From assembly GCA_900696515.1 (NCBI GenBank), contig CAADGK010000114.1, forward strand, positions 1 through 48,790: a stretch of 48,790 nucleotides of DNA, given 5' to 3'. The notes beneath the pieces were generated by a model. The model saw only the letters and a program-made list of their open reading frames with translations, was not told where the DNA came from and ran no database searches. The DNA is from an uncultured Nitrosospira sp. Its GTDB lineage: Bacteria; Nitrospirota; Nitrospiria; Nitrospirales; Nitrospiraceae. Made by a program: the position numbers and the translations under genes. Shown in pieces: positions 3,166 to 35,099 of this stretch; within the stretch, counting starts at the first letter, position 1, and each line of letters opens with the position of its first letter.

Positions 3166-3167
3166 CG

Positions 3168-6314: not shown

Positions 6315-6431
6315 CATCCACGCCAGACCATATGCAAGGTCTCCTTTGCATGAATGTGTAGACGGCACCGAGGCAAAAGGCTGCCAGCACCTGGGAGCAC
6401 TTATCCGAAAGGTTATGCAACAGACGGAGAC

Positions 6432-6640
6432 GGTGTGGGGAATCGCCTCAAATTCCAAGGCCAGGAGGTGCCGGTCTGCATTCTCTCCCTCTGTTCTAGT
6501 TCCGGCGAATACGATTCTCGTGGGGGTGGCGTTCATTTTAGATCGAAATCGAATCAACGTGGCTATTTCACGTGCCCAGTGCTTGGCGATAGTAGTTGCA
6601 GACAATCGGATTGCCCAGAGCCGTTCCAGGGTCTCTTGAC
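6432..6640 (+). pseudogene. Frameshifted C-terminal scrap of a superfamily 1 helicase
   Basis: Two adjacent frames together give a recognisable AAA_12-type helicase tail. LKFQGQEVPVCILSLC is readable from about 6447, and after a frame change near 6520 the other frame reads FILDRNRINVAISRAQ and CLAIVVADNRIAQSR. In intact proteins these run as one piece (the KFQGQE and NVAISRA motifs V and VI). No start, N-terminus or single open frame exists, so this is a decayed remnant, probably of an older defence gene. The remaining gap to zorA shows no other coding signal. Confidence 0.6.
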
Positions 6641-8879: not shown

Positions 8880-8882
8880 GGG

Positions 8883-9605
8883 ATGATTGGGACTCGCATA
8901 GTTCTCAAACGGGGTGGGAAAGATGAGCCTGAAAAGCCATTTTGGATCTCGTTTTCGGATTTGATGACTGCCCTAATGGTGCTGTTTCTTGTTGCGATGA
9001 GTGTTGCGTTGCTTGCTGTTACGAAAACGGTGACGGAAGCCGAAAGGGCTCGCGCTGAGCGTGAGAAAGAACTTGAGTGGCTCCTTGAAGAGGTTGAGAA
9101 GGCGGCACAGCAATTCCCAGGAGTATCCGTAGATCGAAATAGAAATGTGATCGATTTCGGCGAGAGAGCTTTGTTTGACACGGGAAGCCACCAGCTGAAG
9201 GCTAATCAGGCCGCTCTTCTGAGACAGTTTGTGCCAAAGGTATTGGAAATTGCCAGAAGTCAGCTTGGACAACAATGGCTGAAACGCATTGTGGTGGAAG
9301 GATTCACTGATCAACGAGGCACTTATCTTTTCAATCTTAATCTCTCATTACAGCGAAGCCAGCGAGTGTTATGCGTGCTTCTGAACTCACCCAGCTCCGG
9401 TGAAGCTGAAATGAGTCCTGAGGAACAAGAACAAATAAGAGAGCTATTCCTTGTTGGTGGATACTCCTTCAACTCGGCCAAGCCATCTCTCGAGGGAAGC
9501 CGACGGATAGAATTCCGGCTCGAATATTTTGGAATTGGAGAAAAGCCACCTGTAAAGGTGGATATTCCCCGAGGGAACTTTGGCGCTTGCTCGATGGGAG
9601 GCTAA
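8883..9605 (+). CDS. zorB: Zorya type I ZorB, MotB/OmpA-like stator subunit
   Basis: A MotB-type protein of 240 residues: one N-terminal membrane helix (about residues 22-46) that begins with FSDLMTALMVLF, where Asp26 matches the conserved proton-carrying aspartate of MotB and ZorB. A periplasmic OmpA-like peptidoglycan-binding domain follows, with FDTGSHQLKANQ near 98 and VEGFTDQRG near 138, then NLSLQRSQRV. It should anchor the ZorA motor to the cell wall. The stop codon overlaps the next start by one base (TAATG), so zorC translation is coupled to it. Confidence 0.9.
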   Translation: MIGTRIVLKRGGKDEPEKPFWISFSDLMTALMVLFLVAMSVALLAVTKTVTEAERARAEREKELEWLLEEVEKAAQQFPGVSVDRNRNVIDFGERALFDTGSHQLKANQAALLRQFVPKVLEIARSQLGQQWLKRIVVEGFTDQRGTYLFNLNLSLQRSQRVLCVLLNSPSSGEAEMSPEEQEQIRELFLVGGYSFNSAKPSLEGSRRIEFRLEYFGIGEKPPVKVDIPRGNFGACSMGG

Positions 9606-11239
9606 TGGGCTCGCTTGATCAACTGCGTGCTGAACTAGACCGTGTGAACACAAGCCTTTGGCGTGAGAGTTTCAGCTCGCCGAAGCCTATGGCGCAACTT
9701 GCCGAGGAAGTAGAGCGCCGATTCGGGAATGGTATCGCGCCTGAGAAGGACCTAATAGCGGTGGCCGTCAGGCAGTTCCATCGTTCTAGCCAGATTGAAT
9801 CATTCCGAGATGTCAAACTTGTTTGCTATGGTGTCGCGACAGAGGTGATGCCAGATCGTATCCTTCTCTTGCGCAATCCTGACCTAGTAGGGAAGTTGCT
9901 GCATATAGTGGAGGGAGTTCGTCCTCAGGCCCGAAAGTATAGGCGATGCTTCCAGGCGCTGTTGACCGCATACTTCGAATACAAACCGGAATCGTTACAA
10001 GATGGAGCACATCGTTCTTGGCTTTCAATGCGCACATTCTTGAGAGCGGGAGTCTCTTCGATTCGCCATGAACCGACGCCAGAGTGGGCTGAGAAAGTCA
10101 TTGAGCACAGAAATCTATTTGATGATGATCCGTGCGAACGATATGGGAAGCAAGTTCTTGAGGGTAACCTTTCGCAGGTACGTGACGCATTTACTACAAT
10201 AGGTATTTCCAGGAATTCCTGGGTTCAGGCAGATGTCTTCATGGCCGCCGTTCGGGCAGCCTGTAGTTCAGATGACTACCAATTCAGGCGTTATGTCGAT
10301 GCTTTGCTTGGCCTGCTAAAAGACAATCCGGCCATACAAGTCTCAGGAGTGAAATGCATTCTTGAACGCTATGCCCGGATAGACTCTCATCCAGACCATG
10401 CTGCTCTTCGTATATTTTCCATCGATTTGCTCGGGAATCCACTGCTCATATCTAACGCACCGCGTTGGGATGGAGTATCGGCGGAAGCACGAAAAATGGT
10501 TTCCGACTGGATCAAGCTCGAGCTTATTGAGCAATTCTTTGAGATGCTTTCTCATGACGCTGCTACGGATTCACGCAGACTTCAATTTTGGGCGGAATAT
10601 GTATCGCATATTGAGAACGTATGGTTTGTCTTAGGTGCAGGCGCTAGGAGCAATTGGAGTCCTGACTTTAAGAAACTGCGAACCCTAATGGGAGATCAAG
10701 CTATAAATCTTGAGGGCGCCACCAACGGGAACAATGCATTTGTAATGAAAATAGGGAGGCTACTCGTTGTTGAGTTTGGCGAGACTGGTAATGCGGCTTA
10801 CCTATTTGATGCACGGAATCCCCCATTTCAGCTAGGGGGGGCACTTCACCTTCGGGAAGACTTAAAGAATAGTCGAAATCTCGGAAGCTTAAAGCACGTC
10901 GATGGGCATGAGAAATGGGAGCAGAAATTTCGACGAGCTATTAGTAACCATATTGGAGTCACACAACCTGGATGGGAAAGTGGTGAAAAGCGTGGTCTAA
11001 ATGAGTGGGCGCAAAAAGAGGCAATCTACAGATCAGGCGGAGTCTTCGCGCCATCGGATTTTGATAAGGTATTTAGGACTTTTTGTGCTGATCGAGGCCT
11101 GAGGTTCATCGATCAGCGTGCGAAGGGTGGCAACCTCACTGTGTATGCGAATGCAGATAACCCAAAGATAAGCGGAACACTGGGTCAGTGGGGTTTTAAG
11201 TTTGAGCGTCGCAATGGGGTTTGGGTGAAAGACAGATGA
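9605..11239 (+). CDS. zorC: Zorya type I ZorC, EH-signature protein
   Basis: A 544-residue soluble protein between zorB and zorD, the position of ZorC in type I Zorya. Its predicted helical character and the C-terminal region with RGLRFIDQRAKGG and a GQWGFKFERRNGVW end fit the EH-signature family, though I recognise it mainly by context. The ATG at 9605 is preferred over an upstream in-frame TTG at 9587 because GGGAGG lies just before it and it overlaps the zorB stop. ZorC is thought to act in the cytoplasm with ZorD on invading DNA. The gene overlaps zorD by 4 bp (ATGA). Confidence 0.8.
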   Translation: MGSLDQLRAELDRVNTSLWRESFSSPKPMAQLAEEVERRFGNGIAPEKDLIAVAVRQFHRSSQIESFRDVKLVCYGVATEVMPDRILLLRNPDLVGKLLHIVEGVRPQARKYRRCFQALLTAYFEYKPESLQDGAHRSWLSMRTFLRAGVSSIRHEPTPEWAEKVIEHRNLFDDDPCERYGKQVLEGNLSQVRDAFTTIGISRNSWVQADVFMAAVRAACSSDDYQFRRYVDALLGLLKDNPAIQVSGVKCILERYARIDSHPDHAALRIFSIDLLGNPLLISNAPRWDGVSAEARKMVSDWIKLELIEQFFEMLSHDAATDSRRLQFWAEYVSHIENVWFVLGAGARSNWSPDFKKLRTLMGDQAINLEGATNGNNAFVMKIGRLLVVEFGETGNAAYLFDARNPPFQLGGALHLREDLKNSRNLGSLKHVDGHEKWEQKFRRAISNHIGVTQPGWESGEKRGLNEWAQKEAIYRSGGVFAPSDFDKVFRTFCADRGLRFIDQRAKGGNLTVYANADNPKISGTLGQWGFKFERRNGVWVKDR

Positions 11240-14200
11240 GTATGATGGAGCGATGGCGTAAGTCCTCAGGCGAAAGAGAAAGCCGGTTACGGCTATGGGT
11301 TTTGTATGGCCGGGATACGGCTCGCTACATCTTCGCCGGCTGTATACCAGATGACGAAGCCGTAGAAATACGGAGCCCGTTGGCGGTTCACTACCTAAAT
11401 GAACTAACGCTGAGGGGACAGGTAAAACAGAGCGGGGAAACCTATAGTTTGTCGTGGGATGTGACTTACCAGTTGCTGGCGGACAAGGAGCATGTCCAAG
11501 GTATCACCGTTTTGGAGTTGCCTCCCGTAGGAGATCTTAAGCCAGCGCTGCGGAGCGAAAATACTCTCGATGATGACGACTTCGCGATTGGTATTGATGG
11601 CTGGTTCGTCAATGGAGTGCTTTTGGGAGCGGTGGAGTTAACTGGTCCGGTTGCTCGAGAAGGAGCCAGCCGAACCTTGCTATCCAAGGAAGTATTTGCG
11701 GTCTTGCGGGCAGTCCAAGACTTTTATGCCGACGGCCAGCGGTCCCCTCAGTCTAACAGAAGGCATTGGGGGAAAGTCCGTCAGTTGGCAATGGTTGCAG
11801 GTGCAAGGATGGACCAGTTTCTCAACGACACCATTGTGCTGACCCCTGAAAAGTTACACGTTCAATTGAACAAAACCGATGTTGATGGTACTGGGGTCGT
11901 AGAGGTCCAGCCTTGGTTTGCCGGCGCACCAGACAACTGGCTTCGACAGTTCGACACCAGGAGTGACGTCCCTGAGACATACAGAATTCTACGTGAAGAC
12001 CAGCTAATCGAGGTGGTGCTCACACCCCCTGTTCGCTCGGTCTTACGAGCGATCAAAAAGATGCCAGGACGTAGGGTCGCTGGCGTATTTGCTGAAAGGT
12101 TTCTTAGTAATCCGTACGCCACTTTGGGCGAGGACGCAGATCTTGTTATTGATGAAGAGCAATTCGATGAAGCGCGGTGCGAGGCAGGAATTGTGTTCCA
12201 GTGGTTCACCGCGCATTGGCAGTTGTGCGATAGCGATATAGTCCAGGCAGGGGTAACCATTACCACTGCGGATTCCCATTCCCCGCACGCAGAGTTAGAG
12301 GTCTTTAAGAATCCTGAAGATTTGCGGAAGTTTGTCGTCACGGTTGAGTCAAAATTGCAGATGGGCCTGGAGTTATGCGATTGGCGTGGGCATAGCCTCC
12401 AGTTAGTCGGGGATACCCAAGAGCAGGTTGATATCCTCAAGAACATTTATGCGAGGTGGACACGACCTAAGGTTAGTATTCGTGCGGCTGAGGTGCTGGA
12501 CCTTCAACGATATTCAGAGCGTGTAACAGGTATCGGGGTGCAGCCCAACATTGTTTCGCCGTATATATCCAAGGCTGAAAAAGATCCTTGGTTTCCAGAA
12601 GGTGGGGGGGATGGTAAAGGCGATATTCAACTAGTCTCTGTCAAACTCGAAAATGGAAAATCCTTCGAGCTATGTATCGATAAAAAGGTATTTGAGACCC
12701 TAAAGAAGGCTGTTGCTGAAACGCGGTTGAAGGGAGGGACATTCGTTGCGATACCCGGCACAGCAGATTCGGTTTCCGTCGAAATGGCGGAAGGATTAGT
12801 CAATGAATTACGGTCAAGGTACGAGAAGGAAACGGGAGGAGAGTCACAATCTGACTCTACGAAGAAGATTGAACGTGAGGAACTGCTCATCCAGACAAAT
12901 ATCGGCTCCACTGGGTATTTGGAGTCACGAGCTTCTGAGCTTGAATTCGAAAACCGCACACCTGTATTGCCGAATACGTTAAAGCCTGGGATTGCGTTAA
13001 AAGACCACCAGAAGGTCGGGGTCGCTTGGCTTCAGCATTTGATATCGAAAGCACCACATTACTGCCGGGGCGCCATTCTAGCGGATGATATGGGGTTGGG
13101 TAAAACGTTGCAGCTATTAACGGTAATCGCTGCCGCCTTGGAGACGAATCCCAATCTTGATCCAATTCTTGTTGTTGCTCCGGTTTCATTGCTTGAAAAC
13201 TGGAAAGAAGAGGTGGAAAAGTTCTTTGAGCCGAAGGCGCTCTCACTTCTCACCCTGTATGGCGATTCAGTTGGTCGGTTGCGAGCAAAGAGTCATGAGA
13301 TTGAGAAAGATCTTATTGAGCGAGGGTTCAGTCGATTTCTAAGGGAGGGATGGTTAGGCGATTCAAAAATTGTTCTAACAACCTATGAAACTCTTCGCGA
13401 TCTAGAGTTCTCTTTGGCTGCTATGCGTTGGTCTCTCATGATTTGCGATGAAGCCCAGAAGATTAAGAATCCTGCTGCTATGGTGACACGTGCCGCCAAG
13501 AAGCAGAACGTTGGGTTCAAGATTGTGTGTACAGGGACCCCAGTCGAGAATTCGCTCGTCGACATATGGTGCTTGTTTGATTTCATCCAGCCCGGCCTAC
13601 TTGGAGCGTTGAATGACTTTGGAAAAACGTATCGTCGCCCTATTGAGTGTGAGACCGACGAACACGCCGAAAAGCTACAGCAACTCCGCGCAATTATTGA
13701 GCCTCAAGTATTGAGGCGGCTAAAGACTGATGTTGCAAAAGAGCTTCCGAGGAAAATCGTCGCCGAATCCGCTCGTAAATTACCTATCTCCATGTATCAA
13801 CGTGAGCTATATGGGCATGCAATAGAGCAGTACCGTTTGAGGCATGTCGATGGGTATAACGGGCCTTTTAAGAATCAGCTAGGGCTGCTGCACTTCCTGC
13901 GAAAAGTGTGTACGGATCCAAGAGAGCGAGGGAAAGCATTTGACCATGAGTCGTTGTCCGATGCTCGACAAAAAAATCCCAAGCTCGACTGGTTGATAAA
14001 TACTTTGGAGCAGATCCAACGGCAAGGCGAAAAGGTAATCATTTTCTGCGAATTTCGCGACATGCAATTGGTGTTGGCCTACTACATTGAGCAAGTATTC
14101 AAGCTCCGTCCGGATATCATCAACGGAGATACCTCTGCAGCGGAGGCTAGTGCCGAAAGCAGGCAGAAGCGGATTAAGGAATTTCAGTCAGTCCCAGGAT

Positions 14201-14973
14201 TTGGAGCCATAATTCTGTCACCGGTAGCGGTAGGGTTCGGTGTCAATATTCAAGCAGCCAATCATGTCATTCATTTCACCCGAACATGGAACCCGGCCAA
14301 GGAAGACCAGGCGACTGATCGCGCATACCGCATAGGGCAAACGAGGGATGTCTACGTCTATTACCCTGTTGTGTGTGCCGAAGAGTTTATGACGTTCGAT
14401 GTTCTATTGGATCGATTGCTCGAAAGGAAACGCGGTCTATCTGGAGACATGCTTAACGGCACAGGGAACATTCTCCCGAGTGAATTCGAGGATGTGGTGG
14501 GTGTGGGCAAGGATGTGTTTGAGCAGCAAGTCTTGATTGAAGACGCCGATACTCTTGATCCTCTCTATTTTGAAGCGATGATTGCGGCGCTTTGGAAGAA
14601 ACGGGGATTTAAGACAGTTAAATTAACGCCCGTGAGCGGAGATGGTGGGGTTGATGTGGTTGCAAAGACTATTAATGTGGGCGAGCTTATCCAGGTAAAA
14701 CACTCTTCATCTGAGGACGGTTCTTTGGGCTGGGACGCCGTCAAGGAAATTGTCGCTGGTGAAAAACTATATGCATTCCAGTATCCGGGAGTGCAATTTA
14801 AGAAAATTGCGCTGACGAACAGAGAATTTAGTTCAAACGCACGTGCCCAAGCAAACCTCCTCAGTGTTGAACTAATAGGCCGGCATCAATTGACCAGCTT
14901 GTTGCAGGACCATCGCGTAACGATGACGGAAGTCGAAAGCTTCTTATTTTCATCTGAGCATGTGGCCGTCTGA
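11236..14973 (+). CDS. zorD: Zorya type I ZorD, SNF2-like helicase with Mrr-type nuclease end
   Basis: An effector of 1245 residues. A long N-terminal region precedes a SNF2/Swi2 ATPase: ILADDMGLGKT at about 613-623, CDEAQKIKNP near 737, CTGTPVENSL near 760, and motif VI QATDRAYRIGQTRDV near 1025. The C-terminus is an Mrr-like restriction nuclease, with GDGGVDVVAKT near 1136 and LIQVKH near 1150 supplying the D...QxK catalytic pattern. The ATG at 11236 overlaps the zorC stop; an upstream TTG at 11221 is less likely. ZorD is the DNA-degrading component proposed to be released or recruited when ZorAB fires. The fused Mrr domain matches type I ZorD rather than type II systems, which carry an HNH protein instead of ZorC/ZorD. 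Confidence 0.9.
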   Translation: MSMMERWRKSSGERESRLRLWVLYGRDTARYIFAGCIPDDEAVEIRSPLAVHYLNELTLRGQVKQSGETYSLSWDVTYQLLADKEHVQGITVLELPPVGDLKPALRSENTLDDDDFAIGIDGWFVNGVLLGAVELTGPVAREGASRTLLSKEVFAVLRAVQDFYADGQRSPQSNRRHWGKVRQLAMVAGARMDQFLNDTIVLTPEKLHVQLNKTDVDGTGVVEVQPWFAGAPDNWLRQFDTRSDVPETYRILREDQLIEVVLTPPVRSVLRAIKKMPGRRVAGVFAERFLSNPYATLGEDADLVIDEEQFDEARCEAGIVFQWFTAHWQLCDSDIVQAGVTITTADSHSPHAELEVFKNPEDLRKFVVTVESKLQMGLELCDWRGHSLQLVGDTQEQVDILKNIYARWTRPKVSIRAAEVLDLQRYSERVTGIGVQPNIVSPYISKAEKDPWFPEGGGDGKGDIQLVSVKLENGKSFELCIDKKVFETLKKAVAETRLKGGTFVAIPGTADSVSVEMAEGLVNELRSRYEKETGGESQSDSTKKIEREELLIQTNIGSTGYLESRASELEFENRTPVLPNTLKPGIALKDHQKVGVAWLQHLISKAPHYCRGAILADDMGLGKTLQLLTVIAAALETNPNLDPILVVAPVSLLENWKEEVEKFFEPKALSLLTLYGDSVGRLRAKSHEIEKDLIERGFSRFLREGWLGDSKIVLTTYETLRDLEFSLAAMRWSLMICDEAQKIKNPAAMVTRAAKKQNVGFKIVCTGTPVENSLVDIWCLFDFIQPGLLGALNDFGKTYRRPIECETDEHAEKLQQLRAIIEPQVLRRLKTDVAKELPRKIVAESARKLPISMYQRELYGHAIEQYRLRHVDGYNGPFKNQLGLLHFLRKVCTDPRERGKAFDHESLSDARQKNPKLDWLINTLEQIQRQGEKVIIFCEFRDMQLVLAYYIEQVFKLRPDIINGDTSAAEASAESRQKRIKEFQSVPGFGAIILSPVAVGFGVNIQAANHVIHFTRTWNPAKEDQATDRAYRIGQTRDVYVYYPVVCAEEFMTFDVLLDRLLERKRGLSGDMLNGTGNILPSEFEDVVGVGKDVFEQQVLIEDADTLDPLYFEAMIAALWKKRGFKTVKLTPVSGDGGVDVVAKTINVGELIQVKHSSSEDGSLGWDAVKEIVAGEKLYAFQYPGVQFKKIALTNREFSSNARAQANLLSVELIGRHQLTSLLQDHRVTMTEVESFLFSSEHVAV

Positions 14974-15143: not shown

Positions 15144-15454
15144 ATGAACCAAGCATTAAAAGAGAGGTTAGAACAACTCAAGCTTATGCCTGCCGACATG
15201 TCAGGCGCTATGCGGCTTCAACTCGAAGGTGGGATTGAGGTGCGTGCGGTCACACATCCCTTCTTCTGGCCTAGTGCTCATCAGATCACATTGTCATTAG
15301 TCCCGAAGATCTGCTTAAACACTTTCAAGAAAAGGTGACCATGGGAAAGCCTGAAGCCAACCTTGTAGAACTCGTCGGTTTGATCGAGCGCTGCCAGTTG
15401 TTTGTGGCAGATCTCCCTTTCGGCCACTCCTCCCATAAGGGGAGCCTCAGGTGA
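15144..15454 (+). pseudogene. Frameshifted small gene leading the PLD-helicase operon
   Basis: Two short frames appear to be one gene of about 100 codons broken by a single frame change near 15280. The first part starts MNQALKERLEQLKLMPAD and runs to EVRAVTHPFFWPSAHQ. The second, in the -1 frame, continues SDHIVISPEDLLKHFQEK into a segment that includes MGKPEANLVELVGLIERC, and ends at 15454. Its stop overlaps the GTG of the next gene (GTGA), as expected for a real operon member. An independent small protein could also start at the ATG at 15341 (37 residues). No family is recognised. A sequencing error, a true mutation or programmed frameshifting are all possible; I see no obvious slippery heptamer. 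Confidence 0.5.
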
Positions 15455-16758
15455 CGCTCACCGTTCCGTTCCTTACCGATCTCGATCCGCAGGCTGCAGT
15501 CAAAGGATCCCGCGATCCTCTCGGGATCCAGACCATCTGGGCGCGTCTGGGGCGGCATGTTGTTGGGAACCTGACCACGGTCAGTACATCAGTGCGTGAT
15601 TTTACGGCGTTGCTTCTTGGCTATTACTTCGCCGAGCGTGTCGCAAGCGAATTTGGCGGGGACGGGGACCTTCCGGTTTTTCTTCGATGGGAACAGCTTG
15701 CGGCCTACGCGCGGGGTGAAATAAACGGTGATTGGGCATTCCGCGGCGTCGAACGCGTGAAGAAGAACCTGCAGGGTGGCGCACCAGTCCGTCTCGGTGC
15801 GAACTCGACGGCCCAGATCCTCAGTAACCAGAAAACCTATGGCCTCTGGGGGCTCTACACGGTACCTGCCAGGTCTTCCGGACTGGTTGAAGGCAATCCG
15901 ACCAGGCTCACGACGTCCGGTCGCCATCTTGTAGAAGAATTGTACTTGCCCATCTTTACAAAATGCGGGTTTCGGAATGCGGATGTGATCACGGCCCGGC
16001 TTGCAAAACCGTGGAGTGACCTCGACCCCCGGACGCCAGACCGTCGGGTCCTTCAAGCGATTGCAAAGGTTCTCGATAAGCGTATCGCTATTGCAGAGCG
16101 AGAGATATACCGCTTCCATCTCCTGCTAGGTGGCCCCCTGGACAGGACTGAAGGAGGCCAGTCCCTCCTCGTTGCGGCAATGGACTCCACACTTGATGAT
16201 CAAGGGTGGGAGCTATCGCCTTCTCGAGTGCGACACCTAGCCAAGCAGTGTCGCGCGCAGAGTGAAGCCGGGGAGGCCGTGGCGGAACGATTGGAGTGTA
16301 TCCGCACGAGCGAACTGCTGCTGGCGCCTGCAGTGGCGCTGTTCGGCCTATTACTCTCCAGCGATGGCCAGACGATCACTGAGCTGTCGCGTGTGGTCAG
16401 AAGCCAGTGGGGAGCCTCTGTTCGAACAATTGATGTGGACGCGGTTGCTTCTCTGGAGGCAGAACTGCGGGACTCCACTGGAGAGTCAGAAACGGGGGAG
16501 CGATGGGTGCAGATTGCACACACGCTTGCTTCCGGTGATTATGAGCGAGCCATCGGTTTGCTCATGGAGCAGAACAGTTCAGTTATGAAGTGCCGGGCAG
16601 GATCGGCACCGTGGGTGGACGTGAGCAACGGACGACTTCGCGTTAAGTTCCGTGACGATGGCGCAGAGTTGCCGAAGGGGTCAGAGCTGCCAGAGTACTG
16701 GCGGCACTCCTACTTTCTCGACTCGTTACGGTCAATTGCCCTCGCGTTGAGAGTCTGA
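15451..16758 (+). CDS. Unrecognised 435-residue protein of the PLD-helicase operon
   Basis: Not firmly recognised. The protein is soluble, without signal peptide or membrane helices. An N-terminal pattern, DPLGIQTIW followed by TSVRDFTALLLGYYFAE, loosely recalls the start of DUF6361-type proteins found beside nucleases and helicases, but I would not assign it on that. The remainder is mixed, with an acidic stretch near residues 340-350 and no visible catalytic motif. It starts with GTG overlapping the preceding stop, and the next gene begins 3 bp after its own stop, so it is locked into the operon. A specificity or adaptor role for the nuclease-helicase pair is a guess from context. Confidence 0.7.
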   Translation: MTLTVPFLTDLDPQAAVKGSRDPLGIQTIWARLGRHVVGNLTTVSTSVRDFTALLLGYYFAERVASEFGGDGDLPVFLRWEQLAAYARGEINGDWAFRGVERVKKNLQGGAPVRLGANSTAQILSNQKTYGLWGLYTVPARSSGLVEGNPTRLTTSGRHLVEELYLPIFTKCGFRNADVITARLAKPWSDLDPRTPDRRVLQAIAKVLDKRIAIAEREIYRFHLLLGGPLDRTEGGQSLLVAAMDSTLDDQGWELSPSRVRHLAKQCRAQSEAGEAVAERLECIRTSELLLAPAVALFGLLLSSDGQTITELSRVVRSQWGASVRTIDVDAVASLEAELRDSTGESETGERWVQIAHTLASGDYERAIGLLMEQNSSVMKCRAGSAPWVDVSNGRLRVKFRDDGAELPKGSELPEYWRHSYFLDSLRSIALALRV

Positions 16759-16761
16759 GCC

Positions 16762-18807
16762 GTGGCTGAAATCCCTCACGCTGTCCTCTCCGAGCAACTC
16801 GAAGAAAGACTTCGCGGGCGCCGTCTGGTGGCTGCGGTATTTCTCACCTTCCGATTCGATCCCGAGTTCTTCGAGCAGGAGATCCTGCCGGTATTTCTCG
16901 ATGTGCCGTTGAGCCATGCTAGTCCGATCAAGCTGGTGCAACTCGAAGATGCGCTGCGCTCCGTTCCCGACGGGGTGGCAGTCTACTACGACCAGAACGG
17001 ACTCGTTCCAGAAGCCGGTCCCGCCCGCCTCGATGTGAAACGCATCGCGGTTCGCCATCGAACCGGCATCTTCCATCCCAAGAATGTCTTCGCGCTCGTC
17101 GAAGACCTCGAACCAGACGAGGACGGCCGTCGCCCGAGGGCGCTGGTCGTTGCCTGTTTGTCCGCGAACCTCACCCGGGCGGGTTGGTGGGAAAATGTCG
17201 AGGTGTGCCACTCTGAGGAAATCGCCAAAGGTGACTCCACGCGGCTGCGCGACGACCTCATCGGCTTCCTGGAAGGAATTGAACGACGGGTAGGAGAGAA
17301 GACATCTGATGGCCACGCCTCTCTTCGAGCCATTCGAAGCTTCCTACGGACGACGGAGCAACGTGCCAAGCGGTCGAGTGAAGGACTTCTCCACAGGCAC
17401 TTCTTCGACGGTCGAACGTCGGTTCCCGACTTTCTCCGGCAAGTTGTCGGAAGCGGTCTAGAGGGGATGAACCTGGAGATTATTTCGCCATACTTTGATG
17501 AGGGACCGACGTCTGGGCCACTCGACGACCTGATCAGTCAGTTCAAGCCTCGTGAGGTGCGGGTGTTCCTGCCCCGGGCGCATACCGGGGAGGCGCTCTG
17601 CTCGCGCCAGATCTATGAGTGGGTTCGAAGTCTGCCGGACGTGACCTGGGCCATGCTACCTCAGGACCTGCTCAGAAGAGGCAAGAGCGAAGACGCGCGC
17701 CAGCGAACGGTTCACGCGAAGGTCTATCGGTTCTTTACGGGGCAGCCTAAGCGCGAAATCCTCTTCGTCGGATCGGTCAACCTCACGAGTCCCGCTCATC
17801 GGCCGGGCGGCAACCTGGAGACAGGATTTCTCGTGGAACTGTCCCCACCGCGTCGACCAGACTGGTGGCTCATGGCTGATAGCTCGCGTCCACGGGAGTA
17901 CAAGCCGTGTCTCGAAAGCGAGGGCAACACTGCGAGCGGCGGTACCAAGTTATCCGTACGATTCTGGTGGAACACCATGGCGGCTGAGGTCTATTGGGAC
18001 GATTCGTCGTTATCGCCGAAACTTAGTGTGACGGCTCAAGGTGTGGAGGTGTTTGAGGCGGATGCGCTGCCGTCGAGAGAGTGGCGGTCCCTTTCCACAG
18101 AGGCGTGCGCTGAGCTACATCGCGTACTCCGATCGACCTCTCTCCTTACGGTTGCCGGAGAGGGACAAGAGCCGAGGTTACTCCTTGTGCAGGAAGAGGG
18201 CATGTCACATCGTCCGTCTCTGCTATTCGAGCTGTCTCCATCAGAAATACTTCGGTTCTGGTCCCTCCTCACCGTGGCACAACGGGCCGCGTTCCTCGAT
18301 GCACGGGCACCTGACGTCGCCTTGCTGGGTGAGGGCGCCACGCTCGTATCCCAAAGCGGACCTCTTGCTCAGGAATCCACGTTTTTCGATCGTTTTGCCG
18401 GGATCTTCCTGGCATTCGGAAATCTTGAGCGAAGTGTCCGGTGCGCCCTGCGCGAAGGTCGGAAGAGCGAGGCCACATATCGGCTGTTCGGGCAAAAATA
18501 CGACTCACTCGGTACTCTGCTGAACAGAGTGTTCAAAGACAGCGCCGATGGTAAAGGCGACTTCATCGATCACTACCTGGTTGCCTTGTGTGCGCGGCAA
18601 CTTGTTCAGGAACTTAGGCGAGATTACGCCGAGTTCTGGCTGGAGCATGTGTCGGACGCCGAGCACCTCCAAGAACAACTCAGGGCTGTAGCGCACATCC
18701 GCGACCGTCTCATTGGTCGCAATCCGACAGAAATGGCAGCGTTTCTGGACTGGTTTGACCGCTGGTTCCTGCATCGGGCTACGCCGGTCGTTCCGGAGGC
18801 GTCATGA
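16762..18807 (+). CDS. Phospholipase D-type (double HKD) nuclease-like protein
   Basis: A 681-residue protein with two half-sites of the phospholipase D superfamily. The first is FHPKNVFALVE near residues 103-113 with ACLSANLTRAGWW near 131-143. The second is VHAKVYRFF near 317-325 with FVGSVNLTSPAH near 335-346. Both show the H-x-K ... S/G-x-N pattern; the first is variant in spacing. PLD enzymes of this size next to helicases act as DNA nucleases in DISARM (DrmC) and other defence systems, so nuclease activity is likelier than lipid cleavage. The C-terminal third is helical and unrecognised. Starts with GTG, and its stop overlaps the helicase ATG (ATGA), implying a fixed ratio of the two products. 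Confidence 0.75.
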   Translation: MAEIPHAVLSEQLEERLRGRRLVAAVFLTFRFDPEFFEQEILPVFLDVPLSHASPIKLVQLEDALRSVPDGVAVYYDQNGLVPEAGPARLDVKRIAVRHRTGIFHPKNVFALVEDLEPDEDGRRPRALVVACLSANLTRAGWWENVEVCHSEEIAKGDSTRLRDDLIGFLEGIERRVGEKTSDGHASLRAIRSFLRTTEQRAKRSSEGLLHRHFFDGRTSVPDFLRQVVGSGLEGMNLEIISPYFDEGPTSGPLDDLISQFKPREVRVFLPRAHTGEALCSRQIYEWVRSLPDVTWAMLPQDLLRRGKSEDARQRTVHAKVYRFFTGQPKREILFVGSVNLTSPAHRPGGNLETGFLVELSPPRRPDWWLMADSSRPREYKPCLESEGNTASGGTKLSVRFWWNTMAAEVYWDDSSLSPKLSVTAQGVEVFEADALPSREWRSLSTEACAELHRVLRSTSLLTVAGEGQEPRLLLVQEEGMSHRPSLLFELSPSEILRFWSLLTVAQRAAFLDARAPDVALLGEGATLVSQSGPLAQESTFFDRFAGIFLAFGNLERSVRCALREGRKSEATYRLFGQKYDSLGTLLNRVFKDSADGKGDFIDHYLVALCARQLVQELRRDYAEFWLEHVSDAEHLQEQLRAVAHIRDRLIGRNPTEMAAFLDWFDRWFLHRATPVVPEAS

Positions 18808-21800
18808 TCGACATCGCCACCGCGAGTCAGTTGTTGAGTTTCGGCGCTCGCATAGGATCCGGCCCCCGCGCAGAGGAACAGCTCGAGGGCGCAGTTGCGA
18901 TCCACAATATCCTCGAGAAACACCGAGTCGCATACCTCGCTGACGAAGTCGGCATGGGGAAGACCTATGTGGCACTCGGGGTCTTAGCCTTGTTTCGCCA
19001 TTTCCAACCTGACTTCCGTGTGTTGATCATTGCCCCAAGGGGAAACATCCAGCGCAAATGGATGAAGGAGTTCGGGAACTTTGTCGCCTACAACGTCAAG
19101 TACCCTGACCTCCGTGTAAGGGCAATCGATGGGCAGCCCGCCCGACCATTGGTGGCTTGCGAAAACCTCATCGACTTTGTTCGCGAGGTCGTCATCGACT
19201 CAAAGCGAGACTTTTTCCTTCGGCTGAGCTCGTTCAGCTTAGCCCTTAGCGACGATGTAGAACGGCGAGGCTGGAAACGTGTCCGCGACGACCTGCGGCG
19301 GGAAGTTCCATGGCTACCAGAAACTGCGCTCGATCTGAGATGTAACAAGGACGTTTTCAAAGACAACATTGCGAGGGCTGTCTGCTGCGCGTTGCCGGTC
19401 TTCGACTTGGTTATCGTAGATGAGGGGCACAATCTTAAGCATGGTTTCAGGGCCGGTGTCGCGGCCAGAAATCGGGTCTTGGCCTTGGCGTTCGGACATC
19501 CATCCGAGACTGGGGCTGAGCGTCAGTTCGCCGGGTATGGACCACGCGTGAAGCGGGTGTTGTTTCTATCGGCCACGCCGCTTGAGGAGACCTACCAACA
19601 TGTCTGGAATCAATTGGACGTGTTCGGATTAAGCAAGGATTTTGGTGGGTTGCGCGAAGACACATTGACTGAAGACGACAAGAAGCAAGTGGCAGCCAAA
19701 TTTCTCGTTCGCCGTGTTACCACGATGCGTGTTGGTGGAGAGGACCTGACGAAGAACCAATACCGACGAGAATGGCGTCGTGGTGGTGTTCACCATCACG
19801 ACGACCCTATCCGCGTGGATGACGATCGCCAGCGGCTGATTGTGGCGCTCGTGCAAAAGAAAGTTGCGGAACTTCTTGGATCTGAAACATTCAACATGTC
19901 CTTCCAGATCGGGATGCTCGCCTCATTTGAGAGCTTCTTGGAAACGACACGCCTCAAGCGAGCTGATGAAGAAACAAATGGAAACTTTGACGACGCCGAT
20001 CAGACGGATGACGTGCGGGACGAGGCTCTACGCATGGCAACCCGTGAGGGCATCGACGTTCGGGATGTGAATCGATTGGCACGCCACTACAGAGATGCTT
20101 TTGGCAAGGAGATGCCACACCCGAAGATGGACGCCCTTGTCGACTCTCTCAAGAATACGTGGACCACTGGGAAGAAGGCGCTAGTCTTCGTTCGCCGGGT
20201 TAAGTCCGTTGACGAATTAAAGCGAAAGCTCGATGAAAAGTACGATGAATGGTTGATTCAAGTGCTGCGTGAGCGACTTCCCCCAAACGTGTTGGTGCGT
20301 TTTGACGCAGTAGTACAGAAGTATAAGCAGGAGAAGCGATTGGCCGAAACAGCACGGCAGGCAAGAGCCACGGCCGTCCAGGCAGCAGAGACTGTTGGCG
20401 TCGATCTCGATACCGATGATCGTGGTGGCACGGACACGTTCTTCGCTTGGTTCTTCCGTGGTGAGGGTCCAAAAGGGGTCGTCAGTGGCGCGAATATTCA
20501 ACGGCGCTTTATCCAGAAAGGGACTGCGTACTCGACGTTCTTTGAAGATAACTGCGTCATGGACCTCCTCGGGGCCAGGCCTGGTAGTGTAGCTGAGGCG
20601 TTGGGGAAGCGCCTGGAGATTGACGAACATTCGTTACGGCAGGAACTGAGCCGACGCGCCGCGAAGTACCTTGGTCGAGCCAAAAAGCTTCAGAGGGCTG
20701 ATCGATTCGAGGCTGCGCAGGCAGCGGCCATTGAGCTGTTGAAGGAACAGCAGGACCTTCTGGGCGATCGCGCGCGAACCATTTGGCACGAGCGGTTCGA
20801 GACATCCATTCGAAACGCCCCTGCTGGCGAAGCTCCGGACGTAACCGATGCGTTGGAGCAAGCTACATTCTATACCGAGCTCCGGCGGCCTGATCGTGCG
20901 GAGCTGCGGAAGGCTTTGTGGCCAGGCTCTCGTGCGGGCTCAGAGCGCGAACGCTTTCGCGAAGAGCAGCAACGGGCCCAAGTGCTGGCAACCGCGGCGC
21001 GCCTCGGACATGCGCTCATTGACTTATACGTTCTGACGATCCAACGCCTTGGTAGCATCGAGCAGCGAACACTCGAGGCCGAAGGAGCGGACGGCGATGC
21101 TGCGGATCGCCGACGTATTGATGAGTATCTCGACTTACTCGAGGTGCAGCGCGTGACGCCTCTTGGTAAACGGGCATGGGGCGCTTTCGATGAACTGACT
21201 CAAATTGCCAAGAACTTCGACCTCATTCTCGACGTTAATGCCTCCGAGGCTCGCTCCATGCGGCTCGCCGAAACAGCCCGCTACTTTGGGTCCATTCTGC
21301 GAGCGCAGCAGCCCATCGGTGGGATGTCTGGTCAGATAAATAGGACTCTGCTCCAGCAGTTCCGAATGCCCGGTTATCCTTTTATTTTGATCTCAACGGA
21401 TCTTCTGCAGGAAGGAGAGGATCTCCATACCTTCTGCTCGGCAGTACACCACTACGGCATCGCGTGGACGCCTTCGTCAATGGAGCAACGCGTCGGCAGG
21501 ATCGACCGTGTGCGCTCACAGACAGACCGGCGTCTCTCTGGCCTCGACACGGTTCCTGATGGCGAGGATTTCCTCCAAATCTACTATCCGCATCTGGAGG
21601 CCACTGTCGAGGTGCTTCAGGTGCAGCGCGTCCTGGAGCGTATGAACACTTTCCTGCGGCTGATGCACGAAGGATTGTCTGTGCCGAAAGGCGACCGTCG
21701 GCGCGTTGACGTCAGTCGCGACATAGTCGACAGCCGTCGCACTGTTGAGCCAATCCGAGGACGACTCCATACTGCGTTTCCGATCCCAAAGTGGGCCCTT

Positions 21801-22325
21801 GAGGGGCGGCATCAGTGTTTGGAGTGCGATGAAGCGAAGACGGCCGCGATATGCGAGCGTTTCAAGCAGTTGGCGCGGGCAGAGTATGGCGGGCTTGCGA
21901 TCGAGTGGGAACCGTCCTCCCGGAACGGGACACTGCTCGGGACGGTGAAACTTGCAACAGGGCGTATTCAGCCTATCGCATTGTTGCTCAAGTCTGATGG
22001 AGAGCGGGTCGTCGTCAGATGCGTGAGCCCAGTCGGTCTCGTGGAGCCGGAATCGACGGTGACCGCTCTGGAAGAAAGTGCACGGATGCGCCGAGCCAGA
22101 ATTGGCGCGATTATCGGCCGCGATGAATCCTCGTATGACCTGACCGTTGAGGAGGATGTTTTGCTTGGGGATCCCGAGCATGATGTGTCACGCGTCACGA
22201 TGCTGTTGCGGCGCGTGGCTGAGGAGGCGGACGCCCTCGAAAAGATTCATCTGCCCTCGCTTGATCAGACGCTAGATGTATTCGAGGGGGACCTCAAGCG
22301 TGAAGGAGGAGCAGGTCATGTCTGA
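18804..22325 (+). CDS. Large SNF2-like superfamily 2 helicase
   Basis: A superfamily 2 ATPase of 1173 residues in the SNF2/HepA style. Motif I is LADEVGMGKT near residues 43-53, motif II VDEGHNLKHG (a DEGH box) near 204, motif III FLSATPLEETY near 253, and the C-terminal lobe has LISTDLLQEGEDL near 867 and MEQRVGRIDRVRS near 892. Between the lobes is a roughly 400-residue charged helical insertion rich in Arg, Ala and Glu (about residues 430-780), longer than in standard SNF2 proteins. It probably translocates on duplex DNA to deliver the neighbouring PLD protein to its target. The end overlaps the next gene by 8 bp. Confidence 0.8.
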   Translation: MIDIATASQLLSFGARIGSGPRAEEQLEGAVAIHNILEKHRVAYLADEVGMGKTYVALGVLALFRHFQPDFRVLIIAPRGNIQRKWMKEFGNFVAYNVKYPDLRVRAIDGQPARPLVACENLIDFVREVVIDSKRDFFLRLSSFSLALSDDVERRGWKRVRDDLRREVPWLPETALDLRCNKDVFKDNIARAVCCALPVFDLVIVDEGHNLKHGFRAGVAARNRVLALAFGHPSETGAERQFAGYGPRVKRVLFLSATPLEETYQHVWNQLDVFGLSKDFGGLREDTLTEDDKKQVAAKFLVRRVTTMRVGGEDLTKNQYRREWRRGGVHHHDDPIRVDDDRQRLIVALVQKKVAELLGSETFNMSFQIGMLASFESFLETTRLKRADEETNGNFDDADQTDDVRDEALRMATREGIDVRDVNRLARHYRDAFGKEMPHPKMDALVDSLKNTWTTGKKALVFVRRVKSVDELKRKLDEKYDEWLIQVLRERLPPNVLVRFDAVVQKYKQEKRLAETARQARATAVQAAETVGVDLDTDDRGGTDTFFAWFFRGEGPKGVVSGANIQRRFIQKGTAYSTFFEDNCVMDLLGARPGSVAEALGKRLEIDEHSLRQELSRRAAKYLGRAKKLQRADRFEAAQAAAIELLKEQQDLLGDRARTIWHERFETSIRNAPAGEAPDVTDALEQATFYTELRRPDRAELRKALWPGSRAGSERERFREEQQRAQVLATAARLGHALIDLYVLTIQRLGSIEQRTLEAEGADGDAADRRRIDEYLDLLEVQRVTPLGKRAWGAFDELTQIAKNFDLILDVNASEARSMRLAETARYFGSILRAQQPIGGMSGQINRTLLQQFRMPGYPFILISTDLLQEGEDLHTFCSAVHHYGIAWTPSSMEQRVGRIDRVRSQTDRRLSGLDTVPDGEDFLQIYYPHLEATVEVLQVQRVLERMNTFLRLMHEGLSVPKGDRRRVDVSRDIVDSRRTVEPIRGRLHTAFPIPKWALEGRHQCLECDEAKTAAICERFKQLARAEYGGLAIEWEPSSRNGTLLGTVKLATGRIQPIALLLKSDGERVVVRCVSPVGLVEPESTVTALEESARMRRARIGAIIGRDESSYDLTVEEDVLLGDPEHDVSRVTMLLRRVAEEADALEKIHLPSLDQTLDVFEGDLKREGGAGHV

Positions 22326-22692
22326 TTGGAGACAATTCTGCCGAGGCGCCGAGGGAGTGGTCATCGTCGGCGACGGCGTCGACGTGTTCCCATCAGAGGG
22401 GCGGCAACACCACATTGTCATTCGTGAAACAGCAGACACGTATGAGTTAAATGGAGTTGTGGCTCGCGCATCTGTATTGAGCACTATGCCGGATGTACCT
22501 CTCAGATCATGGCGACGTAATCGGGCGATGCAGCTAGTCGGATTCAGAGTCGATCAAAAGGGCCGTCTAGTGGGCGAAGCGTGGGTGCCGAAGGCTGGTT
22601 TGCGGCGCGACGAGTTCCTGATCTACGTTAGACGGGTCGCAGCCGAGTGCGACCTATTCGAGTACTACCTGACGGGGAAGGACCGAGAGTAG
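22318..22692 (+). CDS. Small unrecognised protein closing the PLD-helicase operon
   Basis: 124 residues starting at an ATG with a strong GGAGGAG ribosome site 8 bp upstream, inside the end of the helicase gene. The protein begins MSDWRQFCRGAEGVVIVGD and ends DLFEYYLTGKDRE. It looks like a compact alpha/beta fold with no membrane segment or catalytic motif. The phrase HHIVIRE resembles DHIVISPE in the broken first gene, which may be chance. Overlap with the helicase and the strong ribosome site argue that it is an obligatory system component. The 263 bp after it, up to the IS3 element, hold no supported gene. Confidence 0.65.
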   Translation: MSDWRQFCRGAEGVVIVGDGVDVFPSEGRQHHIVIRETADTYELNGVVARASVLSTMPDVPLRSWRRNRAMQLVGFRVDQKGRLVGEAWVPKAGLRRDEFLIYVRRVAAECDLFEYYLTGKDRE

Positions 22693-22940: not shown

Positions 22941-23756
22941 TCAGGACGTCTGTAGTGCTCCCCTGAAATCAAGCCACCTGGATTGCTTGTTGCGCCCGGT
23001 ATTGGACCGGACTTCGATACCCCAACGCCTGATGCGGCGCGCGTCGGCGAACGACTGGAAGGCGTGTTGCCAGACGCACTCTTCTTTCAGACTTCGAAAG
23101 AATCGTTCGATCATCCCATTCTGCTCCGGCGTATAGGGCGTGATGAACTCTTGCTGCAGGCGATCATCCCGACAGGCTTGCCGAAACCGCCGACTCTGGA
23201 AGATCAGACCATTGTCACTCCGCAGCACAGGCGCGCCTACGGGACGCAGCGTCCCGAACCGCGCGAGACAGGCCGCTTCGACCGCTCGTTCGGCCTCCTT
23301 CGCCCGACTCCGCAACGCGAACTCGTAGCCGATCACTTCCCGATCATGACAGTCGATCACCGCCGCCAGATGCGCCCAGCCGTCTAGGCCGCAGGGAATA
23401 TGCGTCACGTCCATGGCCCACCGCTCATTGCTCCGGCTGGCCTGACTTACCCAGCCTCGAACGCGGGGGCGTGGTGTGGCGACACGGTGATGCACGAACC
23501 AGCCCTTCTGCTTCAGCACCCGATAGACCGCCTTCCGATTGACGACGAACCCATCCCGGAAGCGCAACAGCACCCACAATCGCCGATACCCAAATGTGGG
23601 GTGCTGCTGAATCCGTTCGCGCAACTGCTCTGTCCACGGCGGGTCAGCCGCCCTCCGGCGCCCCTCCGTCACGTCAGTCCGATGAAGGGCGGCGCGGCTC
23701 ACCCCACGCACCTGACAGCTCCGCCGCTCCGAGACACCCGGCAGCGTGACTCTCAC
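22941..23756 (-). pseudogene. IS3-family transposase OrfB with C-terminal deletion frameshift
   Basis: The DDE integrase domain is present: DVTHIPCGLDGW, RSDNGLIFQS and a final TPEQNGMIERFFRSLKEE give the D, D and E positions. After FQSFADARR the frame changes. The open frame reads IRRWGIEVRSNTGRNKQ and runs through the inverted repeat into flanking DNA before stopping. The correct family C-terminus, HQALGYRSPVQYRAQQAIQV followed by A and a stop at 22969-22971, is intact in another frame. About a dozen codons usually present between these parts are missing, so a small deletion near 23035 explains both losses. The gene overlaps orfA by 4 bp (ATGA). The product is probably inactive. Confidence 0.75.
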
Positions 23757-24143
23757 GCGTCGGATGTCTTCCGGTCTAAAGGGTACGGTTTCAAGGCCTC
23801 CCGCAAGAAAGCGTTGTCGAGGACGAGATCGCCGATCTTCTGTTTCAACTTCTTGATCTGTTCGTCCTTCACGGCTTCTTCATCCCGAGGACGACTCCGG
23901 AGCGCATTCTCGGCCCCCAGCAGAAACTTCTCTCGCCAGCCCTCCACCTCGGCCACGGTCAGACCATGCTGACGGGCGGCTTCAGCCACGGAGGTCTCGC
24001 CTTTCAAGATGCTGATGACGAGCGTCCCCCGTCGTTTGGCCGTCCACCGCTCAATCGGTTCAATTGCGTCTGCTCCCATCTTGCCACCTCCTCGGTCCGC
24101 TCAGGACCATGTCGTAGGGGTGGTCTCAATTTCAAGGGGAGCA
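22956..24143 (-). mobile_element. IS3-family insertion sequence, damaged copy
   Basis: A 1188-bp element bounded by related inverted ends: TGCTCCCCTGAAATC at 22956-22970 and, reading inward from 24143 on the other strand, TGCTCCCCTTGAAATT, both continuing to a CCACC motif. It carries the two overlapping transposase frames of the IS3 family on the minus strand. I cannot see a target duplication: the left flank ends CTGTAG and the right flank begins TATATG. The right end lies only 3 bp from an IS1111-type element. Confidence 0.85.
23753..24079 (-). CDS. IS3-family transposase OrfA
   Basis: 108 residues with a helix-turn-helix of the IS3 OrfA type (SVAEAARQHGLTVAEVEGW) followed by a leucine-zipper-like helix (KDEQIKKLKQKIGDLVLD) used for oligomerisation. 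It binds the element ends and, through frameshifting or coupling with OrfB, makes active transposase. The ATGA overlap with OrfB is typical. The frame itself looks intact, unlike its partner. Confidence 0.85.
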   Translation of the reverse strand: MGADAIEPIERWTAKRRGTLVISILKGETSVAEAARQHGLTVAEVEGWREKFLLGAENALRSRPRDEEAVKDEQIKKLKQKIGDLVLDNAFLREALKPYPLDRKTSDA

Positions 24144-24161
24144 TATATGGACCCATCCCTC

Positions 24162-24399
24162 CTGCCAAGGGCTTCCCACCTGATGACTATGAAGGACGGA
24201 CTGCAGGCATATATTCGGCCTTCGGGTGAACTGATCGGTCAGTTCGGGCCGTGATGGAATGTGCGCTCTTTCGCCTTATCAGGATATCGGCCTTCCATGG
24301 CCTGCTCCCCTTCCAGGGTTTGAAAGAGCTGGTCCGACCCATCTCGCCATCAACCGGTCTTACCTTGTGCAGTGACAAGTCGCATCGCACTCTGCTTCG
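24162..24399 (-). ncRNA. Candidate bridge RNA region of the IS1111-type element
   Basis: IS110-family transposases are guided by a bridge RNA encoded in the non-coding end of the element, on the 3' side in the IS1111 branch. This interval is the only one large enough. It contains a strong hairpin at 24216-24251: GAACTGA and TCAGTTC around TCGG, flanked by CGGCC and GGCCG. A further GGCC-TTCCAT-GGCC dyad lies near 24290-24303. I cannot fix the RNA ends or the target- and donor-binding loops by eye. Confidence 0.45.
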
Positions 24400-25416
24400 T
24401 TAGGCCGCTCGTCGATAGCTGGTGCCTTGAGCCAAGAGCGCCCAGATGATTCGTGCGTTCTTATTGGCCACCGCCACGCAAGCCCGGTTGGTGCCTCGCT
24501 GATGGCGTTTGTCGGTAATCCATCGACTGCGGGCGTCCGACTTTGTCGCCGCCCGTGCCACGACAGCCCGAGCCCCGTGAATGAGAAGCGTGCGCACATA
24601 GCGATCGCCTCGCTTACTAATGCCCAACAACCGGGACTTGCCGCCACTGGAGTGCTGCCGCGGCACGAGGCCGAGCCAGGCCGCGAGATGGCGCCCATTC
24701 TTAAAGACGCGGGGATCGGCCACCGCGGCGATAATCGCCGTCGCCGTGAGTGGCCCGATGCCTTCAATCGCTATCAGGCGTCGGCAGCGCTCATCGCAGA
24801 CACAGTGACGTGTGAGCTCTTGGTCGACCGCGGTGATCCGGGCATCCAGCCCCCGTAGCTCTTCGTGCAGTGACGTAAACGTCATCCGAGCAAGAGGCGT
24901 GAGGTCATTAGTCAGATCCTCGATGAGTCGGGGGAGGGCACGCCGTAAGGGACTCACCTGCTTTGGCACGACCACTCCATATTCCGCCAACAGCCCACGA
25001 ATCTGGTTGGCCAGCGCCGTGCGTGCCCCGATCAGGCGTCGTCGCACTCGATGCACATTTTGCAGGTCTTGCTGGGCGACGGTTTTCGGAGGCACGAAAC
25101 GCATGGTCGGGCGGAGGACGGCTTCACAAATGGCCTCGGCGTCATTGAAGTCATTCTTGTTACTCTTCACGTAGGGTTTGACGAACTGGGGGCTGATCAG
25201 GCGTACATCATACCCCAATGCCTGCAACGTGCGGCTCCAATGATTCGCCTCACTACAGACCTCCAGCCCGACGCGGCAGCTGGGGAGATTGGCCATGAAT
25301 GTGACCAACGCGGCCCGCGAGAACCGCTTCTGGAACATGGGTCGCCCAGCGGCATCCCGCCCATGCACGTGAAAGACGTTCTTTGCGATGTCGATCCCTA
25401 GCGTCGTCATGCTCAT
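24400..25416 (-). CDS. IS110-family (IS1111 type) DEDD transposase
   Basis: 338 residues. The N-terminal RuvC-like DEDD domain starts MSMTTLGIDIAKNVFHVHG with the catalytic Asp in GIDIAKN, and continues with VGLEVCSEANHW and SNKNDFNDAEAI. The C-terminal transposase_20 domain has IEGIGPLTATAIIA and LAAWLGLVPRQHSSGGK, which includes the conserved serine region used for strand joining. Full length and apparently intact, so the element may still be mobile. Confidence 0.92.
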   Translation of the reverse strand: MSMTTLGIDIAKNVFHVHGRDAAGRPMFQKRFSRAALVTFMANLPSCRVGLEVCSEANHWSRTLQALGYDVRLISPQFVKPYVKSNKNDFNDAEAICEAVLRPTMRFVPPKTVAQQDLQNVHRVRRRLIGARTALANQIRGLLAEYGVVVPKQVSPLRRALPRLIEDLTNDLTPLARMTFTSLHEELRGLDARITAVDQELTRHCVCDERCRRLIAIEGIGPLTATAIIAAVADPRVFKNGRHLAAWLGLVPRQHSSGGKSRLLGISKRGDRYVRTLLIHGARAVVARAATKSDARSRWITDKRHQRGTNRACVAVANKNARIIWALLAQGTSYRRAA

Positions 25417-31829: not shown

Positions 31830-31927
31830 GCTGGCAGGTCATGGCGAGGAGCTCGAATAGAGCCTCGCATAAAGCTGATGCTTGATGGGGTAAAGACAAA
31901 TGTGCGCAATAGAGAAGCGGTGAGTTG

Positions 31928-32344
31928 GTGGCGATACGAGCGTTTCTCAGCTTTGTTGAGGAGGATTTGGCGCGGGTCAACCTCTTTCGAGGACAAGCAA
32001 GGTTGGAGAGTTCCGACCTAGATTTTCATGACTACTCCATCAAGGAACCATTCGATAGTTATAACGCCCAATATATTCAGTGTGGGATTGCAGAGCAGAT
32101 CAAGCTTGCAACTCTCACCGTGTGCCTCTACGGGCCTACCACATACACGAGCAAATGGGTGGACTGGGAATTGAAAAAAACGTTGGAGCTCGGGAAACCG
32201 CTGATGGGTGTGTCTCTCTATAGCGACGGAAGGATCAGGTACTATCCTGCGCCGTTAGAGCCTTGGCCAAGGGTTAGTTGGAATATCCATCAGATTGTAG
32301 AGGCGATGAATCAGCTGGTCGTGCAATACCGAGGGGTACGGTAG
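31928..32344 (+). CDS. ThsB-like TIR protein (MTH538 / DUF1863 type)
   Basis: A 138-residue single-domain TIR-like protein. It shows AFLSFVEEDLARVNLFRGQA, DLDFHDYSIKEPF, a QYIQCGIAEQIKLA helix, LYGPTTYTSKWVDWELKK, and a C-terminal helix. This is the pattern of ThsB of Thoeris, where TIR proteins make an NAD-derived messenger for ThsA; WVDWE holds the likely catalytic glutamate. The start is GTG at 31928 (or TTG at 31925). No ThsA-like SIR2/SLOG gene is present in the window. The gene that follows 18 bp later is a DUF4062-STAND-FGE protein, so that may be its functional partner. Confidence 0.78.
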   Translation: MAIRAFLSFVEEDLARVNLFRGQARLESSDLDFHDYSIKEPFDSYNAQYIQCGIAEQIKLATLTVCLYGPTTYTSKWVDWELKKTLELGKPLMGVSLYSDGRIRYYPAPLEPWPRVSWNIHQIVEAMNQLVVQYRGVR

Positions 32345-32362
32345 GTTGTCATCTCGTAAGGC

Positions 32363-35059: not shown

Positions 35060-35099
35060 TTCTAAATGTTGTGCTCTCTTAGCTATCGAGTCCTATCAC

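Follow-up and report, generated by a model that had tools for sequence, protein, structure and literature searches.

A PLD–SNF2 cassette beside a type I Zorya operon: a relative of the defence candidate PDC-M27 with an added YbjN/TY-chaperone-like gene

The window, a stretch of 48,790 nucleotides from contig CAADGK010000114.1 of an uncultured Nitrosospira sp., contains a cassette of four genes, A to D, encoding a protein with no recognizable fold, a phospholipase D (PLD)-type protein, a Swi2/Snf2-type helicase and a small chaperone-like protein. It is best regarded as a variant, with D and with a tail on C, of PDC-M27, a ‘phage defence candidate’ with genes A, B and C in PADLOC-DB 2.0.0, the database used here for comparison. 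Judged from sequence, a defence function is likely, and the four proteins of the operon probably form a PDC-M27-type complex directed against invaders, a helicase-nuclease that would degrade invading DNA and in which D would bind or gate C. The genes and the features in them are as follows.

15451-16758, plus strand: gene A, 435 residues, GTG start
16762-18807, plus strand: gene B (PLD), 681 residues
17074-17082, plus strand: first active-site motif of B, HPK (residues 105-107), clade-invariant
17713-17721, plus strand: second active-site motif of B, HAK (residues 318-320), clade-invariant
18804-22325, plus strand: gene C (SNF2/RapA-like helicase), 1173 residues
18951-18965, plus strand: Walker A motif of C, GMGKT (residues 50-54)
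19419-19430, plus strand: motif II of C, DEGH (residues 206-209)
21483-21509, plus strand: motif VI of C, EQRVGRIDR (residues 894-902)
21690-22322, plus strand: C-terminal tail of C (about residues 963-1173), beyond PDC-M27C homology
22318-22692, plus strand: gene D, 124 residues

An earlier reading of the window from sequence only had found no match to a named defence system, but kinship with PDC-M27, though remote, covers A and B almost completely and C as far as its tail. In profile-profile comparison residues 5-436 of A align with 4-459 of PDC-M27A (probability 98.5), B aligns with PDC-M27B over 526 columns (probability 98.0) and residues 22-962 of C align with PDC-M27C (probability 100); the gene order is also the same. 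The window proteins match the PADLOC models themselves only in part, with E values of 2e-18 for A, 1.6e-9 for B and 2.6e-81 for C, and the kinship is one of gene homology, not a call by the PADLOC system rule. The reference PDC-M27 proteins used here are encoded by a plasmid of Vibrio nigripulchritudo (L010) and one of Rhodoferax antarcticus (L009). Full-length PADLOC matches to the models are found for A, B and C of the former and B of the latter, whose A is recognized by profile. These two loci and a further one, L034, are the PDC-M27 loci examined and have no D, whereas the window adds D and its C is some 180 residues longer after motif VI, so that with a tail of 271 residues it departs from the three-gene, short-tail form. 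No M27D is apparent in PADLOC, where the accession following M27C is PDC-M28A; one M27C model there has 1217 positions, and so longer M27C proteins may exist.

A second three-gene arrangement, ZacABC (DUF6361, PLD, helicase; reference on a Rhizobium sullae plasmid, L012), has a like order of PLD and helicase genes, and B has the HxK motifs in common with ZacB and matches it by profile. The PADLOC matches of B to ZacB (E 1.7e-19) and of C to ZacC (E 4e-19) are both partial, the latter being a resemblance at the helicase motifs only, while A has no detectable homology to ZacA (no PADLOC match, profile-profile probability 0.1) and no D is annotated in L012. Since A, B and C all align to PDC-M27 and A is without detectable ZacA kinship, the cassette is placed as a sister lineage of PDC-M27 and not of Zac. 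A literature search gave no paper naming ZacABC, PDC-M27 or DUF6361, ZacA, ZacB and ZacC occurring as words only in unrelated papers.

What sets the cassette apart is the pairing of D with the tail of C. After motif VI there are 265-280 residues in the nine C proteins of the clade and 91-96 in the three PDC-M27C proteins, and both tail and D are present in the nine clade loci and neither in the three PDC-M27 loci, a correlation over twelve loci, several of them related to one another. In this sample tail and D have been gained or lost together, and it is on this account that D is proposed to act on the tail, which itself has no PADLOC or Pfam match. D lies directly 3′ of C, overlapping it, in every one of the nine loci whose C is complete. 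In the window the overlap is 8 nt, that between B and C is 4 nt (ATGA) and A and B are separated by 3 nt, in agreement with the earlier description of genes overlapping or a few bases apart; the B-C and C-D overlaps are kept across clade loci, which suggests translational coupling. A scan for promoters and terminators gave a count of sites not above that of shuffled sequence.

D had been regarded as a protein of unknown kind, but it can now be placed, by Pfam matches of its homologues and by its predicted fold, in the YbjN/type III secretion chaperone (TY-chaperone) superfamily. The window copy has no Pfam YbjN match by sequence, no PADLOC match and no significant match to PDB sequences. Three homologues exceed the gathering score of 22 for YbjN (PF10722), with 24.5 bits in L006, 28.8 in L008 and 30.1 in L029. 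An AlphaFold 2 (AF2) model built from four sequences has a predicted local distance difference test score (pLDDT) of 80, and a fold search with VIA-align gave a best Z of 12.1 and 62 PDB chains with Z of 8 or more; the matches listed above Z 7 are mostly type III secretion chaperones and YbjN-like proteins, with the next dropping to 5.6. Foldseek returned the same chaperone and YbjN matches with probability 1.00 but E above 0.001. The YbjN homologue DR1245 shares the type III secretion chaperone-like fold and binds the SSB-like protein DdrB (PMC3575483), and Iyer et al. 2022, who named the TY-chaperone superfamily, predict for it a role in conflict systems centred on ADP-ribosylglycohydrolase (ARG) (PMC9503650). 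Both are counted in favour of the proposed complex, in which D would be a partner or gate of C.

C is a superfamily 2 helicase or translocase of the Swi2/Snf2 type, RapA/DrmD-like, with a long stretch between its two helicase lobes and then the tail. Helicase_C, ResIII and SNF2-rel_dom are above their Pfam cut-offs and RapA is the sole match among PDB sequences; a SAT motif (SATP in the window) is present and is kept along with Walker A, DEGH and QRxGRxDR. In B, which PADLOC matches to both ZacB and PDC-M27B as given above, Pfam PLDc_2 stays below cut-off and nothing is significant among PDB sequences. The protein had been called a double-HKD protein, and of this the two-motif layout holds: two HxK...(G/A/S)SxN motifs (H105-K107 and H318-K320) are kept in nine of nine aligned clade members and in PDC-M27 and Zac relatives. 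The Asp of the textbook HxKxxxxD is, however, missing from both, though the downstream SxN partners are kept. B is a proposed PLD-superfamily nuclease. A is mostly helical, has no match in Pfam, NCBIfam, PHROGs or PDB sequences and may be a recognition or scaffold subunit.

The cassette is present in ten loci, that of the window and nine others, from four phyla, its order being kept wherever the contig allows. Four relatives came from a scan of genome contigs with C, and a fifth (L008) from G097, a genome of the same genus. A, B, C and D are in order both in the Bryobacterales locus L004 (identity 72/75/76/68%) and in L008 (54/60/56/52%); protein identity in the closer relatives is 46-76%, and four further genomes are more remote. 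A is truncated in L005, the contig of L006 ends within B, and L007 has A, B and a shortened C followed by sequence resembling an IS21 transposase. With the A profile four more strong matches were obtained among 347 sampled Acidobacteriota genomes, all with adjacent B, C and D, so that all five Acidobacteriota genomes with a strong A carry the other three genes beside it, and the conserved multi-subunit nuclease-helicase set that had been surmised, with co-occurrence as its check, is borne out. In one of the loci, L030, A and B are separated by an inserted gene (L030 11491-12990) whose product has Schlafen AlbA_2 and HATPase_c_4 domains.

In its occurrence the cassette is patchy and mobile, infrequent, and found on provirus-like and plasmid DNA. 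C is present in two of 396 genomes of the window's phylum, and strong A matches in five of 347 Acidobacteriota genomes and one of 398 in the phylum of L007, both counts including the seed genomes; the overall frequency is 0.3-1.5% of sampled genomes in three phyla, with most same-genus genomes lacking it. None of 346 Actinomycetota genomes has A, a result of little weight as the contig of the seed genome is itself without A, and A and D gave no match to plasmids at 1e-5, the plasmid copies being of distant relatives. In two IMG/VR contigs the cassette is 99.9% identical to that of L004, and L004 and these near-identical viral contigs have, around the cassette, genes for a serine integrase and a DNA methyltransferase as well as a phage tail match; at least one copy thus appears to ride on a provirus-like element. 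A DUF2779 gene is directly upstream of the cassette in L004 (5127-6641), and another precedes the PDC-M27 genes of Rhodoferax (L009 1049-2551); the latter has weak Cas4 likeness in PADLOC, and the gene is a candidate for a recurrent accessory nuclease.

Snf2 proteins translocate along double-stranded DNA, and many PLD proteins cleave nucleic acid. In the mechanism proposed here C would be a Swi2/Snf2-type double-strand DNA translocase and B a nuclease of the PLD type with its two HxK motifs joined in a single active site, while A would recognize the target or hold the complex together and D would bind C, most simply by its clade-specific tail, either stabilizing it or keeping it off until infection. 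After a trigger, C would pump along the invading DNA and B would cut it. As the operon has no methyltransferase, the distinction of self from non-self must rest on something besides operon-encoded methylation; possible cues are DNA ends, replication intermediates or a protein state brought on by infection that A or D would sense. Helicase-nuclease pairs are common among defence systems. The sequences themselves show the gene set and its conservation, the active-site and helicase motifs, the homology to PDC-M27 and the family and predicted fold of D; complex formation, DNA as substrate, the contact between D and C, gating and the defence activity are steps that we infer; the position near a type I Zorya operon and on provirus-like DNA, the relatives on plasmids and the patchy spread are counted for the defence part.

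Several points weigh against this mechanism. PLD proteins can have substrates other than DNA, the role of A is a guess, its AF2 model having been poor (pLDDT 52) and discarded for fold assignment, and the contact of D with the tail is drawn from co-occurrence. A patchy spread and a place in a defence island also fit other selfish functions or repair, and the literature yielded no phage test of any copy of the cassette. Repair or recombination by a RapA-like helicase with a nuclease is the corresponding alternative and would be helped by the SNF2/RapA family of C, by the occurrence of AddAB-like genes in the window and close to some relatives, and by the partnership of the YbjN homologue DR1245 with a repair protein (PMC3575483). 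It is nonetheless improbable for a set with so low a frequency in three phyla, absent from most of the genus and carried on provirus-like DNA, on plasmids and within a defence island. A further, rather unlikely view is that the cassette is a plain divergent PDC-M27 in which A, B and C suffice, D being either a non-essential passenger or a folding helper specific to this operon. The almost end-to-end alignment of A and B, and of C to its tail, and the lack of D and tail in L009, L010 and L034 would agree with it, but a passenger would be expected to get lost somewhere, and D, still overlapping C, is kept across phyla at each of the nine loci that have C complete, and it tracks the tail. A reduced or derived DISARM is very improbable. 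DISARM (DrmA-DrmE with a methyltransferase) also has a PLD protein alongside a Swi2/Snf2 helicase, and there are weak matches of C to DrmD and of B to DrmC, but at 67.1 bits and 24.1 bits they are far from cut-offs of 610 and 133, respectively, and C is much closer to PDC-M27C (272 bits) than to DrmD (60 bits in the same PADLOC comparison). No DrmB, DUF1998 or methyltransferase match is found for the cassette with PADLOC and Pfam, and DrmA is matched at helicase motifs only. The first reading's verdict that the cassette is neither DISARM nor Zorya is therefore sustained, as is its remark that methyltransferase and DUF1998 proteins are absent, no such Pfam match occurring in proteins A, B, C and D. 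MkoA and MkoB of Mokosh are not among the PADLOC matches of A, B and D, nor among the 25 matches listed for C, in a library whose inclusion of Mokosh models was unchecked.

ADP-ribose metabolism offers another, doubtful, explanation, in which the cassette would be the nuclease-helicase arm of an ADP-ribose conflict network, D binding ADP-ribosylated or misfolded proteins and viral DNA being attacked when a phage uses ADP-ribosyltransferases. In L007 an ARG remnant in two frames (5830-6551) is directly upstream of A; in G618 (L055/L029) an ARG and a DSP-type phosphatase are a few kb past D; the PDC-M27 locus L034 has an ARG and a WYL regulator nearby; and the distant cassette of L042 is preceded by a phosphatase-ARG fusion. 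A D remnant also adjoins macrodomain and DarT genes in G251 (L035). Iyer et al. 2022 assign to ARG-centred systems not only TY-chaperones but also WYL regulators, phosphatases and effectors of the nuclease/helicase type (PMC9503650). The chaperone superfamily of D is shared with these systems, and ARG, WYL and phosphatase genes are near some relatives; the nucleases in the section concerned are of the REase fold, and an A-PLD-SNF2 cassette is not among the systems described there. No ARG match is present in the window or in the available flanks of L004, L005, L008, L030, L031 and L032, and four scattered associations within defence islands could reflect clustering; the association is a lead only. 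A distinct defence class, with a PLD-SNF2 complex gated by an obligate YbjN/TY-chaperone clamped on the helicase tail and triggered by a protein-level signal of infection, for example phage ADP-ribosylation, and not by DNA modification, is a speculative and fairly improbable extension of the four-subunit complex. If that were so, the one-to-one tie of a chaperone-like subunit to the tail of a helicase would give a testable answer, control by protein binding, to the question of how self is distinguished in defence systems that lack a methyltransferase. The four-gene unit is small enough to be cloned whole, and one experiment could inform on both the cassette and the sister candidate PDC-M27, for which no published experimental test was found in the literature and whose three-gene model misses the partner gene D in part of the family.

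The Zorya operon is at 6909-14973 on the same strand and is of type I, with very strong PADLOC matches to ZorA, ZorB, ZorC and ZorD. ZorD is likewise an Snf2 helicase, but Zorya is a separate and complete neighbouring operon. A system downstream of Zorya had been proposed, and the adjacency stands in the window; the link is, however, local, with no Zorya in the flanks of L004, L005, L007 and L008, and functional dependence on it was rejected for that reason. The Zorya stretch has a G+C of about 0.48-0.52 and the cassette one of about 0.54-0.60, a difference that suggests separate origins. In G251, of the window's family, the stretch L035 7589-18001 has divergent Zorya-like genes, DarT and macrodomain genes, the remnant of D (45 residues) and a small nucleotidyltransferase-like gene; the nearness of remnant and divergent Zorya is read as clustering within an island.

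Between Zorya and A there is one further gene.

15144-15454, plus strand: small broken gene, not a member of the cassette, two overlapping frames, about 100 residues combined

Its stop overlaps the GTG of A and it looks frameshifted, as first noted. Its inclusion in the operon has been given up, as no homologue is present in L004, L005, L007 and L008 and only marginal matches were obtained in 59 related genomes.

Upstream of Zorya (478-6314) is a pair of genes, one AddB-like (PD-(D/E)XK) and one AddA-like (UvrD and PD-(D/E)XK), a second copy of which, on contig C121 of G000, has 90% DNA identity over 5.8 kb and two in-frame TGA codons in its AddA match. AddAB-like genes are also near L007, L033, L042, L011 and the rhizobial ZacABC. 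They were considered as members of the cassette and set aside, being absent from most copies and, in the window, separated from it by Zorya. On the 3′ side, inspection by eye points to transposase genes (22941-25416), an IS3-type pair at 22941-24079 and an IS110-type gene at 24400-25416, all on the minus strand. Further on, at 29976-43069, there are CHAT and TPR-S, DUF4062-nSTAND1-FGE-sulfatase and TIR-FGE-sulfatase genes together with a CAP12/Pycsar-type TIR, a TPR-S/MAP3K_TRAF_bd and a TIR-NB-ARC-WD40 gene, and this region looks like an NLR-like defence cluster.

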